Made by a program: the position numbers and the translations under genes
Origin: Candidatus Nitrosopumilus sp.
GTDB lineage: Archaea > Thermoproteota > Nitrososphaeria > Nitrososphaerales > Nitrosopumilaceae
Length of the DNA stretch: 56,217 bases
Reading direction: 5' to 3'
Assembly (NCBI GenBank): GCA_021268355.1
Contig: JAJETY010000005.1
Location: forward strand, 1 to 56,217
The notes under the pieces: generated by a model
Databases searched by the model: none
Told to the model about the DNA's origin: nothing
The model's input: only the letters and a program-made list of their open reading frames with translations
In this document: one piece after another, positions 40,022-44,905 of the stretch
Numbering within the stretch: the first letter of the stretch is position 1
Layout of the letters: each line of letters begins with the position of its first letter

Positions 40022-40375
40022 TTGTCATTGCCACAGAAAGTAAATGAAGATAGATTAGATACTATTTTTCAACTTCAAAAAGGATTGTCTGAAATGATGA
40101 AGTTAGACAGATATCCAAAAGATTCTGAAGGTAGAATTTCTGCATTATCCACTGCCATCATGCATGAAGCAGTTGAATTACAAAGAACCACCAATTGGAA
40201 ATGGTGGAAAACCCCAACAAAATTCAATGAAGTTGAAGCTAGGGAAGAATTAATTGATATTTGGCATTTTGTAGTTCAAGCATCACTGGAATTGCATCTT
40301 ACTCCAGATGATATTGTAGCGGAATATAAAAAGAAAAATCAGATAAATAGAGAAAGACAGAAAAATGGATATTAA
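40022..40375 (+). CDS. Dimeric dUTPase/MazG-like all-alpha NTP pyrophosphohydrolase
   Basis: The 117-residue all-helical protein has the Mg-binding E-x-x-E pattern HEAVELQRTTNWKWWK (residues about 49-64) and the paired E-x-x-D in REELIDIWHF (residues about 79-88). These motifs define the dimeric dUTPase/MazG superfamily that cleaves (d)NTPs to monophosphates. House-cleaning of dUTP is likely. The start is TTG 40022 or TTG 40028. Its TAA shares TTAA with the stop of the convergent MtrA-like gene. Confidence 0.85.
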   Translation: MSLPQKVNEDRLDTIFQLQKGLSEMMKLDRYPKDSEGRISALSTAIMHEAVELQRTTNWKWWKTPTKFNEVEAREELIDIWHFVVQASLELHLTPDDIVAEYKKKNQINRERQKNGY

Positions 40376-40848
40376 GAAATTTTAATTTTATTTTGAAGTA
40401 CTTGAACATCAGTTTCATTAATCAAATCAATTAGGGTAATGTTTTTCTGAAAATAATTTATCATTTCTTTTGAAACTGAGAGATAAGGATTAGGACTTTG
40501 AGAATTTATTATTCTAAAATTTTCATCAATTCCATTTTTATGTAATTGTAATAATGAATGACCAGATTTATGTCCCCATACATCTTTTCCACAAAGAATG
40601 ATTTTTTTTATTTTGTTATTTTGATTAACATATTCAACAATACTATCAATTCCTTTATTTTCTGAAAATAATCTACCAATAATTGCTACTCTAGATAACA
40701 TACCTGAATCTTTCAAATTATCAAGCAATGAAATACTAGATAGCGTACATATTGCAATTTCAGAGTTGGGATTTCCAACGTAAAATTCTTGTTTTATGGG
40801 TAAAACTACCTTACAAATTTCTCCGATAATGTTTCCAAGACTATTCAT
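40372..40848 (-). CDS. Stand-alone MtrA-like corrinoid-binding protein
   Basis: The 158-residue protein matches the soluble domain of MtrA, the corrinoid subunit of the methanogen methyl-H4MPT:coenzyme M methyltransferase. Matching segments are YVGNPNSEIAICTLSS, the block ILCGKDVWGHKSGHSLLQLHKNGID and ENxGIDS. His93 sits where MtrA His84 coordinates cobalt in GH-x-x-G. The C-terminal membrane helix of MtrA is missing, so it is cytosolic. It overlaps the DegT-type aminotransferase gene by 8 nt. A role in corrinoid binding or methyl transfer outside methanogenesis is inferred. Confidence 0.85.
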   Translation of the reverse strand: MNSLGNIIGEICKVVLPIKQEFYVGNPNSEIAICTLSSISLLDNLKDSGMLSRVAIIGRLFSENKGIDSIVEYVNQNNKIKKIILCGKDVWGHKSGHSLLQLHKNGIDENFRIINSQSPNPYLSVSKEMINYFQKNITLIDLINETDVQVLQNKIKIS

Positions 40849-41974
40849 TTAGTAATTCACGCACAGATTTTGCTATATACTCAACATTTTTTCCAGATAC
40901 TTTTGGATGAACCGGTAGTGACATTACGTGTTTTGATGCCCAATCAGTATTATTCAATTTTGATTTTGTAGCATAAATGGGAATTTTATGAACAGGTATT
41001 GGATAATACACTGCAGCACCTATACCTTTTGAATTTAATTTCTTAAGAATTGAATCTCTATTTTTGGTTGCAATAGTGTATAAAGACCAGTTGAATTTTT
41101 CACCATCTGCTTCAATAGGAATTTTTATTTTTGTATCAGATAACAGGTCTGAAAGTATCTTTGCATTTCTTCTTCTAGATTCAATAAATTTAGGTAATTT
41201 TTTCATTTGAATTTTAGCAATTGCCGCGTTAATTTCAGGAAGTCTTAGATTCAATCCAAATACTTTAGAATCATATCCTTTAATCATTCCATGGTTTCTA
41301 ATCATCTGTAATTTTTCAAATAGTTTTTTACTATTTGTGACAATTACTCCACCTTCTCCAGAGGTAATTACTTTTCCAGGATAAAGGCTGTAACAACCAA
41401 CTTCAAAAAAAGTTCCTGTTTGTTTTCCTTTAAAGGAAGAGCCTAAAGATTGTGCTGCATCTTCAACTACTGAAAGATTGTATTTTTTTGCAATATCTCT
41501 AATTTTAGCAATCGAGGATATATGACCATACAAATGTACGGGCATTATTGCTCTAGTTTTTCTTGTAATTTTTTTTTCAATAGATTCAGGATCAATTGTA
41601 AAATTTCCTTTCAATATATCTGCAAAAATAGGTTTTGCTCCAGTAGATGCAACGGCATTTGCGCTAGCAACAAATGTAAAGGATGGAACAATTACCTCAT
41701 CTCCTTTTTTGATATCAAGTGCATAGAGTGCTGCCTGTAATGCTGCAGTTCCAGAATTTACTGATACCGCATATTTTGTTTTTACGAAAGTTCTTACAAG
41801 TTTTTCAAATTCTTGAACATTTTTACCTCCATCTTTTGACGCTGATGTAAGGCCTCCAGATTTTACAACAGAAATTACTGCTGAAAGTTCTTCTTTACCT
41901 AAAATTGGAGTGTTAATTGGAATTTTCACAAATTTTGTCCTAATTACTGCTCTATAAACACAATCACTAGGCAT
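40841..41974 (-). CDS. DegT/DnrJ/EryC1/StrS PLP aminotransferase
   Basis: The 377-residue enzyme belongs to the sugar aminotransferase family. Evidence: VNSGTAALQAALYAL, VIVPSFTFVASANAVASTGAKPIFADI, VEDAAQSLGSSFKGKQTG and the PLP Lys in CYSLYPGKVITSGEGG, with the HGM and LRLPEINAAI segments. Such enzymes transfer an amino group to keto-sugars for glycans or cofactors. It overlaps the MtrA-like gene. It has no glycosyltransferase neighbours, which is unusual for this family. Start ATG 41974. Confidence 0.93.
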   Translation of the reverse strand: MPSDCVYRAVIRTKFVKIPINTPILGKEELSAVISVVKSGGLTSASKDGGKNVQEFEKLVRTFVKTKYAVSVNSGTAALQAALYALDIKKGDEVIVPSFTFVASANAVASTGAKPIFADILKGNFTIDPESIEKKITRKTRAIMPVHLYGHISSIAKIRDIAKKYNLSVVEDAAQSLGSSFKGKQTGTFFEVGCYSLYPGKVITSGEGGVIVTNSKKLFEKLQMIRNHGMIKGYDSKVFGLNLRLPEINAAIAKIQMKKLPKFIESRRRNAKILSDLLSDTKIKIPIEADGEKFNWSLYTIATKNRDSILKKLNSKGIGAAVYYPIPVHKIPIYATKSKLNNTDWASKHVMSLPVHPKVSGKNVEYIAKSVRELLNE

Positions 41975-42009
41975 GAATTTTTATATTTAAAAATTTGGCA
42001 AACGGCATA

Positions 42010-42582
42010 ATGAAATCACGTCATCTGGAGAAAACAGACAAAGGTTACAAAGTTTTTCTTTACATTTTCTATATTTGTGGATTTATAATGTCATCATCAT
42101 TGATTTTCGGAGTTTATGTTACAACGATTGAATGGATGGAAAATGGTACATATGTTATGGGAGAAGCTATACACAATACAACTATTCCATTTGAAAATTT
42201 TGCAAGAGTTTCAACTTGGATATTTTTTTCAACAATAATTGGATGGTATTGTGTTTCTAGAATAGGTTGGAGAAGAACTGCAGGTGATAAAATTATTGGA
42301 ACACGAATGGCATTGCTCCAACTAATGTTATTAGGATTTTCAATTATTACTTTGTTTGAGGTAATGTATAATTTTACTGTCTTAACTGCTCAAATTTCTG
42401 CTGGAATTGTTGATGGTGTACTTCCAGATATAGATAGACTATCAATTGCTTATCCAGATCCAGAAAGGCCATGGAACACCATATTTGCAATCAAAATGTT
42501 TCTAGCAGCATTTATCATTAGTACTCATGCTTTCTATCTTAGTACGAAACCAAGAAAACCATTGGAAGAACCAGAAGTTTAA
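42010..42582 (+). CDS. Hypothetical four-helix membrane protein
   Basis: ATG 42010 gives 190 residues. A TTG at 41995 would add five. Four hydrophobic helices are seen (YIFYICGFIMSSSLIFGVYV, VSTWIFFSTIIGWYC, MALLQLMLLGFSIITLF, and IFAIKMFLAAFIISTHAFYL), with an external loop between helices 3 and 4 and a short charged tail. Scattered His, Trp and Tyr but no known motif. No family is recognised. It is divergent from the DegT gene, with 35 nt between starts. The 181 bp after its stop contain no good frame. Confidence 0.75.
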   Translation: MKSRHLEKTDKGYKVFLYIFYICGFIMSSSLIFGVYVTTIEWMENGTYVMGEAIHNTTIPFENFARVSTWIFFSTIIGWYCVSRIGWRRTAGDKIIGTRMALLQLMLLGFSIITLFEVMYNFTVLTAQISAGIVDGVLPDIDRLSIAYPDPERPWNTIFAIKMFLAAFIISTHAFYLSTKPRKPLEEPEV

Positions 42583-43067: not shown

Positions 43068-44114
43068 TTGGATATTACTGAAAAGGTTGATTTGATTGAG
43101 AGACCACCAACTGAAGAAGTTGTTACACGTGAGGAATTAATTGATTTATTCCAAACAAATTCATCCCCAAAACATTACATTGGTTTGGAAATTTCTGGTT
43201 TTTTGCACCTCGGTAGTTTAATTAGTACAGGATTCAAAATTAATGATTTTGTAAATGCTGGTGTAAAGTGTACAGTTTTTCTTGCAGATTGGCACACATT
43301 AATCAACGATAAATTAGGAGGAGATTGGGAAACTATTTCAAAAGTTTCCAAGTATTATCAAGATGCATTTAAACTGGTTTGTCCTAATGCAGATATTATT
43401 TTAGGTTCTAAACTTTATGAAGAAAAAAATGAATATTGGTCGGAGTTGGTCAAATTTACAAAACACATGTCATTAGCAAGAACAATGAGAACTCTGACAA
43501 TTATGGGAAGATCTGAAAATGAAGAAAAAATTGATGTTGCGAAATTACTTTATCCAGCAATGCAGGCGGTTGATATTCATTCATTAGATGTAGATATTGC
43601 ACATGCAGGAATGGATCAAAGAAAAATCCACATGTTAGTCAGAGAAATATTTCCTAAAATGAAATGGAAGGTACCAGTAGCAGTTCACCACAAATTATTA
43701 CCAGGACTCTCCAAGCCTGCAGACACTAGTGATTCACAAATTTTAGGAAAAATGAGTAAATCTGATCCAAATTCAGGAGTCTTTATCCACAACACAGATG
43801 ATGAAATAAAGAAAAAAATGAATAAAGCGTGGTGTGAAGAAGCAAACATAGAGAATAACCCACTCTTAGAAATTGCAAAAACAGTAATTTTCCACGAATT
43901 TAAAGAGATGAATGTTGAAAGACCTGAAAAGTTTGGGGGAAATGTATCATATCAAAATTATAATCAACTTGAGACGGATTTTGCTGAAAAAAAATTACAT
44001 CCAGGGGATTTGAAACAGACTGTCGGAAATTATTTAGTGAAAATTATATCACCAATTAGAGATAATCTTAATCTAAATGAAGAATTACATGAAGCAATTA
44101 AGAAAAGTTTCTAA
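43068..44114 (+). CDS. tyrS: Tyrosyl-tRNA synthetase
   Basis: This class I synthetase charges tRNA-Tyr. The 348-residue length fits the archaeal type, which lacks the bacterial C-terminal domain. HIGH-like motif: GFLHLG at residues 44-49. KMSKS motif: GKMSKSDPNSG near residue 228. Tyr-site segments include YIGLEISG, LADWHTLIND and AHAGMDQRKIHML. The start is TTG 43068. The stop overlaps that of the convergent cobJ by 4 nt. Confidence 0.95.
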   Translation: MDITEKVDLIERPPTEEVVTREELIDLFQTNSSPKHYIGLEISGFLHLGSLISTGFKINDFVNAGVKCTVFLADWHTLINDKLGGDWETISKVSKYYQDAFKLVCPNADIILGSKLYEEKNEYWSELVKFTKHMSLARTMRTLTIMGRSENEEKIDVAKLLYPAMQAVDIHSLDVDIAHAGMDQRKIHMLVREIFPKMKWKVPVAVHHKLLPGLSKPADTSDSQILGKMSKSDPNSGVFIHNTDDEIKKKMNKAWCEEANIENNPLLEIAKTVIFHEFKEMNVERPEKFGGNVSYQNYNQLETDFAEKKLHPGDLKQTVGNYLVKIISPIRDNLNLNEELHEAIKKSF

Positions 44115-44905
44115 ACTTTGAGATCTGGATTAGTTTGTTCTTCTAAATTGTATTTTGATTTGTATCCTCTTGGATTTATTATCAAATCTTTGTAAGAGTA
44201 TGTTGAAGAATTTCCAACAATCACAGTACTAGTCATTCCTAATTTGTCTGAATGATTTAGTAGATTTTCTAGATCAGTTATTACAATTGATTCGGATTCT
44301 CTATATGCACCAACAATAATTGCAACGGGTGTTGTAGTTTTTCTATATTTTAAGAGAATTTTTCTAGCATCTTGTAGTTGATGAACTCTTTTCTTACTGG
44401 CAGGATTGTAAATCACCAGAACAAAATCGCCTTTTGCAGCAGACTCTACCCTATTTTCAATTACTTCCCATGGAACTAACAAATCACTCATACTAACTAC
44501 TGCAAAATCAGACATTAATGGTGAACCGACAATAGATGCACAAGAGTTTAGTGCAGATACACCTGGAACTACTTCTACTTCTAGTCCATTTTTTGGATCC
44601 CAGCCACCCTCTGCTAAAGTTTCATAGATCAATCCAGCCATTCCATAAATTCCTGGATCTCCGCTAGATACTAGAGATACATTTTTTCCGGACTTTGCAA
44701 GGTCTATGCATTGATGAGCTCTTTCAACCTCTTGAGTCATTGCATAACGATAAACTGTTTTTCCTTCAATTAGATCTGAAACTAGATTTACATATGTTTC
44801 ATAACCAATAATTATATCACTTTCACTTAGTACTTTTTTTGCTCTAAATGTCATGTGATCATTATTTCCAGGACCCACACCGACAATGTTCAATTTTCCA
44901 GTCAA
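44111..44905 (-). CDS. cobJ: Precorrin-3B/cobalt-factor III C17-methyltransferase
   Basis: The enzyme methylates C17 and contracts the corrin ring in cobalamin synthesis. The 264-residue protein is a tetrapyrrole methylase: GVGPGNNDHMT at the N-terminus, SSGDPGIYGMAGLIYE, EVVPGVSALNSCASIVGSPLMSDFAVVSMSDLLVPW (a CobJ-typical region) and VLVIYNPASKKR. No other corrin-ring genes are adjacent, but bluB lies 10 kb away. It overlaps tyrS tail-to-tail by 4 nt (CTAA). Confidence 0.93.
   Translation of the reverse strand: MTGKLNIVGVGPGNNDHMTFRAKKVLSESDIIIGYETYVNLVSDLIEGKTVYRYAMTQEVERAHQCIDLAKSGKNVSLVSSGDPGIYGMAGLIYETLAEGGWDPKNGLEVEVVPGVSALNSCASIVGSPLMSDFAVVSMSDLLVPWEVIENRVESAAKGDFVLVIYNPASKKRVHQLQDARKILLKYRKTTTPVAIIVGAYRESESIVITDLENLLNHSDKLGMTSTVIVGNSSTYSYKDLIINPRGYKSKYNLEEQTNPDLKV

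Follow-up and report, generated by a model that had tools for sequence, protein, structure and literature searches.

The window, that is, the whole stretch of 56,217 nucleotides analysed here, contains a gene for a predicted soluble protein of the MtrA domain family and, upstream of it, a gene for a DegT-type aminotransferase (Table 1). The two genes lie on the reverse strand; as the earlier note had described, they overlap by 8 nucleotides. The aminotransferase matches PF01041 with an E-value of 7e-112 and contains the PLP-lysine region SLYPGKVITSGEGG, which places it in the DegT/DnrJ/EryC1/StrS family. The probable start codon is a GTG near 41929, giving about 362 residues, and not the ATG at 41974, because the orthologs begin about 15 residues later than this ATG.

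Two features of the surrounding gene order are shared with relatives. The convergent arrangement of mtrA and the MazG-type gene is common to families f1 and f3 (defined below), and the position of cobJ about 2.1 kb from degT is kept across the Nitrosopumilaceae. In genus g8 of f1, a gene for a luciferase-like (PF00296) monooxygenase, possibly F420-dependent, lies between the CobJ and tRNA synthetase genes (L045:9866-10843, reverse strand).

Table 1. Genes and ligand codons at the mtrA locus, in coordinates of the window
Feature	Position	Strand	Basis and remarks
MazG/dUTPase_2-type protein	40022..40375	+	Convergent with mtrA; 4-nt overlap
Soluble MtrA-domain (PF04208) corrinoid-binding protein, predicted	40372..40848	-	158 aa; Pfam, NCBIfam, PDB matches, fold
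Codon of His93, equivalent of cobalt-ligating His84 of MtrA	40570..40572	-	GHKSG; alignment
Codon of Glu63, equivalent of Glu54	40660..40662	-	Alignment; [ST]EN[KN]G motif
DegT/DnrJ/EryC1/StrS aminotransferase	40841..41974	-	377 aa as ATG ORF; PF01041; upstream neighbour of mtrA
Uncharacterised membrane-protein-like protein	41995..42582	+	Divergent from degT; no Pfam family
CobJ/CbiH precorrin-3B C17-methyltransferase	44111..44905	-	TIGR01466, 307 bits vs 246; about 2.1 kb upstream of degT

A soluble MtrA-type protein and its ligand residues

The 158-residue product matches PF04208 with an E-value of 2.5e-27 (96.1 bits; cut-off 25) and the NCBIfam model NF002126, which already names a soluble-MtrA subfamily, with 170 bits (cut-off 161). 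Its top sequence-based structural relatives are all MtrA (PDB entry 5laa, 2e-21). An AlphaFold2 model (pLDDT 88) has the MtrA-specific Rossmann-type fold, and its PDB matches with E < 0.001 are MtrA structures only, with TM-scores of about 0.73-0.79 (0.78 for cobalamin-bound 5laa), so that the structure prediction proposed in the earlier note bears out the assignment made there. The protein ends after the soluble domain and, as had also been noted, does not contain the C-terminal transmembrane anchor of subunit A of the Mtr complex; with 158 residues and no membrane segment, it fits the limit of < 215 residues for cytoplasmic MtrA homologues (Wagner et al. 2016). It is the single MtrA of the window's genome. 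Sequence and predicted fold thus support its identification as a genuine soluble MtrA-type corrinoid-binding domain protein in a non-methanogenic host. A second Pfam match of the protein, FAINT at 22.2 bits, was judged spurious. Note that the MtrA of PMC4084955 is a response regulator unrelated to the protein discussed here.

In the solved MtrA-cobalamin structure, cobalt is bound by His84, Glu54 hydrogen-bonds His84, and Thr53, Asn55, and Gly57 contact the cofactor (PMC4915002). In the alignment, the equivalents of His84, Glu54, Thr53, Asn55, and Gly57 are His93, Glu63, Ser62, Asn64, and Gly66, respectively. His93, the histidine of the GH-x-x-G motif to which attention had been drawn before, is kept in 77 of the 78 Nitrosopumilaceae sequences, the exception being one MAG with Gln, and the SEN motif that includes Glu63 is found in all 78. 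The His and Glu ligand pair is also present in all aligned MtrA sequences of families f2, f3, and f5, at around 40% identity. The methanogen meander consensus GAIPF-Y/F-xEN (PMC4915002) is replaced by SPNPYL in the window MtrA and by SPDPYL-like sequences in its relatives; we regard this consensus as characteristic of the methanogen proteins rather than of PF04208 in general. The dN/dS of mtrA is about 0.1-0.15, which indicates purifying selection, yet it is above that of the neighbouring genes, i.e., mtrA evolves faster. Because the ligand residues are kept and the selection is purifying, corrinoid binding by the window MtrA is likely.

Two deviating sequences were encountered. The sole sampled Nitrosopumilaceae MtrA with Gln in place of His93 (L160:413-889, forward strand) comes from a locus that is also without DegT. 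In family f19, an MtrA-domain protein (L069:6368-7279, forward strand, genome G012) has neither the cobalt-ligating His nor the supporting Glu, which suggests a non-corrinoid derivative.

MtrA was found, always in single copy, in 188 of 300 genomes of the class, mainly in four family groups of ammonia oxidisers (f1, f2, f3, and f5). Here, f1 is the Nitrosopumilaceae, as judged from named loci; f2 is read as Nitrosocaldaceae, since it has MetE instead of MetH, in line with reports on that family (PMC5817080, PMC7819960); and f3 is taken to be the Nitrososphaeraceae. Kinship with these families leads us to infer an ammonia-oxidising lifestyle for the window's organism. Several ammonia-oxidiser lineages, some of them small-genomed, are without MtrA, and the protein is therefore dispensable. 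It is best read as vertically inherited from the common ancestor of ammonia-oxidising archaea. A longer MtrA of about 255 residues occurs in families f9 and f10, directly behind an ArsP-type permease gene (L066, L067, and L068; genomes G195, G267, and G196, respectively). Where the contig extends far enough, a DUF169 gene is found upstream, and in L066 and L067 an ArsR regulator lies downstream; a metalloid or organometal context is possible for these proteins. G195 also contains MtrH.

Gene neighbourhood in other families and a possible role

In f2, f3, and f5, mtrA lies behind a gene for a 130-residue PPOX/F420-type split-barrel protein (hereafter, PPOX), a protein encoded outside the window. 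PPOX matches the PNPOx-like split-barrel profile PF01243 with an E-value of 9e-19, and among NCBIfam models it comes closest to the F420-dependent PPOX classes, scoring below the equivalog cut-offs. Among the 35 genomes of these families in which both genes could be placed, PPOX directly adjoins mtrA in 28; in several f1 genomes it is located about 7 kb from mtrA. Outside the Nitrosopumilaceae, MazG often follows the PPOX-MtrA pair.

Cobalamin genes are found next to this pair in part of f3. In particular, the gene for CobA (cob(I)yrinic acid a,c-diamide adenosyltransferase) is divergent from the pair in genera g23 and g29 and lies two genes from mtrA in g25, a linkage that represents conserved synteny within one family, not many independent events. 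At these loci metK and cbiD lie downstream, and in g23 cbiG does too. No cobalamin genes adjoining mtrA were seen in f2 and f5. In two other genera of f3 (g24 and g27), the pair is preceded by a protein of about 200 residues with no Pfam or NCBIfam match (L059:7964-8575, reverse strand, and relatives) and by a small membrane-protein-like ORF.

Co-occurrence of PPOX and MtrA is not strict: many Nitrosopumilus genomes contain just one of the two, and PPOX is also found in archaea without MtrA. Co-occurrence as proof of a partnership looked strong in 41 genomes but failed in Nitrosopumilus on 300 genomes, and therefore gene linkage alone was used. One genome (G152, locus L232) has two PPOX copies: the copy beside MtrA contains an in-frame stop, and a different contig carries the intact copy, a picture that would fit a PPOX gene moving away from mtrA.

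The reading that we tentatively prefer, with a confidence somewhat short of even, is that the window MtrA is a stand-alone cytoplasmic corrinoid carrier of B12 metabolism, inherited from the ammonia-oxidiser ancestor, with PPOX as its candidate redox partner and DegT as a separate, later neighbour. Judging from the conserved residues and the neighbourhood, MtrA would bind cobalamin in the base-off/His-on form with the corrin face exposed, would pass the corrinoid, or a reduced or ligand-stripped form of it, to other B12 enzymes, and would serve CobA. PPOX would be the most likely redox partner, reducing Co(II) to Co(I) before adenosylation by CobA or reactivating oxidised cofactor; a precedent elsewhere is CobR, a flavoprotein corrin reductase that acts before adenosylation (PMC4083273). 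DegT would be a separate aminotransferase, probably acting on sugar nucleotides, that a rearrangement in the Nitrosopumilaceae ancestor put upstream of mtrA; the two genes would probably be co-transcribed but not mutually dependent. Several points weigh against a carrier: the His-on, exposed-corrin geometry is equally what a methyl carrier needs, PPOX and MtrA co-occur non-strictly, the CobA synteny is confined to one family, the meander motif is changed, and MtrA is dispensable.

A corrinoid-repair role is also worth considering, because the title of Heal et al. 2018, as cited in PMC7819960, reports that NO2-cobalamin accumulates in ammonia-oxidising archaea. Here the MtrA-fold protein and a PPOX/F420-type reductase would reduce or strip inactive (e.g., nitrite-ligated) cobalamin, which CobA or B12 enzymes would then receive, with no methyl transfer. 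We consider this rather unlikely.

Methyl transfer, loss of function, and the DegT pairing

Alternatively, MtrA could be a methyl carrier, in which case some methyltransferase, or the pterin domain of MetH, would methylate its cob(I)alamin and some further enzyme would use the methyl group. The MtrA fold, with His on the cobalt and the corrin exposed, is the fold of a methyl carrier (PMC4915002), the key ligand residues are all kept, MetH with a pterin domain occurs in most of these genomes, and methanogen MesA methionine synthases are predicted to take the methyl group from MtrA (PMC7857596). The enzyme searches, however, argue in the other direction. MtrH (PF02007) is absent in the window's genome and in all other f1, f2, f3, and f5 genomes searched (39 in all; controls positive), in agreement with the earlier statement that no Mtr partner is present. 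The pterin-binding proteins are solely DHPS and MetH, and f2 keeps MtrA though DHPS is its sole protein of this type; a roughly 290-residue pterin protein, considered as an MtrH-like or AcsE-like partner, scored as DHPS above the cut-off. The searches for MtrH, pterin-binding proteins, and MetH/MetE thus revealed no dedicated methyl donor or acceptor for MtrA, and the folate- or H4MPT-linked methyl chemistry suggested at the outset has no visible donor enzyme.

For methionine synthesis, these genomes have MetH or MetE. The core MetE-type synthase (PF01717) is absent in the window's genome, which has MetH instead, and in most MtrA-bearing relatives. MetH occurs in most genomes, whether or not they contain MtrA, and a MetE-type enzyme (split MetE) in f2 and f5; the use of MetH or MetE by ammonia-oxidising archaea has been described (PMC5817080, PMC7819960). 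Since one or the other is present regardless of MtrA, a role of MtrA as the methyl donor for methionine is not supported. On balance, we find a methyl carrier doubtful. In two Nitrosopumilaceae genomes (G124 and G127), which contain a MetE-type synthase and one pterin-binding protein only, MetE seems to have taken the place of MetH, an enzyme reported to be universal except in Nitrosocaldus (PMC5817080).

We find it improbable that MtrA is a leftover from ancestral methanogenesis that has retained little function. Such remnants are common in archaea (PMC9635834), and mtrA evolves faster than its neighbours and was lost several times. However, the low dN/dS and the almost invariant His93 and Glu63, kept across families down to about 40% identity, speak against decay, as a non-functional protein would not retain the ligand pair.

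The pairing with DegT was surveyed in 80 named Nitrosopumilaceae loci, of which 78 were judgeable and 2 were cut by a contig end. In 72 of the 78, degT lies directly upstream of mtrA, mostly with a 4- or 8-nt overlap, and in the other 6 there is no DegT. This order is conserved across the family and is thus not due to chance, and the selection pressure on the two genes is similar. The survey called for in the earlier note therefore has a divided outcome: the order holds within the Nitrosopumilaceae but fails outside that family, and repeatedly inside it.

In the six genomes without DegT, mtrA is intact and is directly preceded by a gene of the 41995-42582 type; no DegT relative was found elsewhere in these genomes with a query that was positive in 35 of 41 other genomes. 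An in-frame scar of the DegT N- and C-terminal ends remains beside the intact mtrA of L139. Conversely, with DegT intact, mtrA is cleanly deleted in G063 and is a pseudogene full of stops in G086, while G103, G037, and G141 have DegT and no MtrA. On a tree of six neighbouring proteins, these cases represent at least four independent losses of DegT and at least three of MtrA; sampling was by presence of one partner, so that joint losses are under-counted. Mutual dependence of DegT and MtrA is excluded, and the functional coupling that had been proposed is not upheld.

No DegT-MtrA pair was found in f2, f3, and f5, where the DegT ortholog, when present, is located elsewhere. In f3 genus g27 it adjoins genes for glycosyltransferase 2, a nucleotide-sugar dehydrogenase, and a polysaccharide deacetylase; in the immediate neighbourhood of the window locus there is no glycan cluster, as the earlier note had remarked. 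In f3 g23 and f5, a homologue of the 41995-42582 protein is encoded beside or close to the ortholog, and this protein is therefore probably an older neighbour of DegT. The pattern suggests that a block of the 41995-42582-type gene and DegT was joined to mtrA-MazG in the Nitrosopumilaceae ancestor. Because each gene was repeatedly lost without the other, and because mtrA has other neighbours in other families, DegT is probably an upstream neighbour of MtrA rather than its obligate working partner. DegT aminotransferases have no corrinoid requirement. A two-gene module that aminates or methylates a sugar or amine in a corrinoid-linked reaction, which the overlapping order and similar selection would favour, is very improbable. 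The independent losses of each gene without the other largely refute it, and the nonexistence of the pair in f2, f3, and f5, the glycan genes beside DegT in g27, and a DegT family that needs no corrinoid also speak against it.

Significance and comparison with known systems

That MtrA homologues exist outside methanogens was already pointed out in 2016 (PMC4915002). Our literature searches yielded no publication that treats this MtrA in ammonia oxidisers or connects it to PPOX and CobA. Ammonia-oxidising archaea are regarded as major producers of B12 in the ocean. A conserved, uncharacterised, predicted corrinoid protein with genomic links to both a redox-type protein and cobalamin adenosylation offers an entry point to the reduction, protection, and movement of B12 in these aerobes. 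If the corrinoid-repair reading is true, MtrA and PPOX would make up a B12-handling module of a new kind, and MtrA would have a use other than methyl transfer. In this lineage, the annotation 'tetrahydromethanopterin S-methyltransferase subunit A' is misleading.

The window DegT is a full-length member, with the PLP-lysine context, of the DegT/DnrJ/EryC1/StrS sugar aminotransferases (e.g., WbpE, QdtB, and 7b0d), although its locus has no glycan cluster in the immediate neighbourhood. The MtrA subunit of the Na+-pumping Mtr complex has a corrinoid domain homologous to the window protein, which differs in having no C-terminal membrane helix, MtrH, or mtr operon. With the CobR corrin reductase and CobO/CobA step of B12 synthesis, the parallel is that several Nitrososphaeraceae-like (f3) genomes have a redox-protein-type gene (PPOX) as well as CobA next to mtrA; PPOX belongs to a family other than that of CobR, and we know of no MtrA-type carrier in that step. 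Compared with the cytoplasmic MtrA homologues of methanogens, the window protein resides in an aerobic ammonia oxidiser without MtrH and in another gene neighbourhood, and it has about 34% identity to the Methanothermus fervidus-type homologue (5laa), with an altered meander motif. It nevertheless shares with them the fold, the soluble single domain of < 215 residues, and the His ligand with its supporting Glu, Asn, and Thr/Ser residues.
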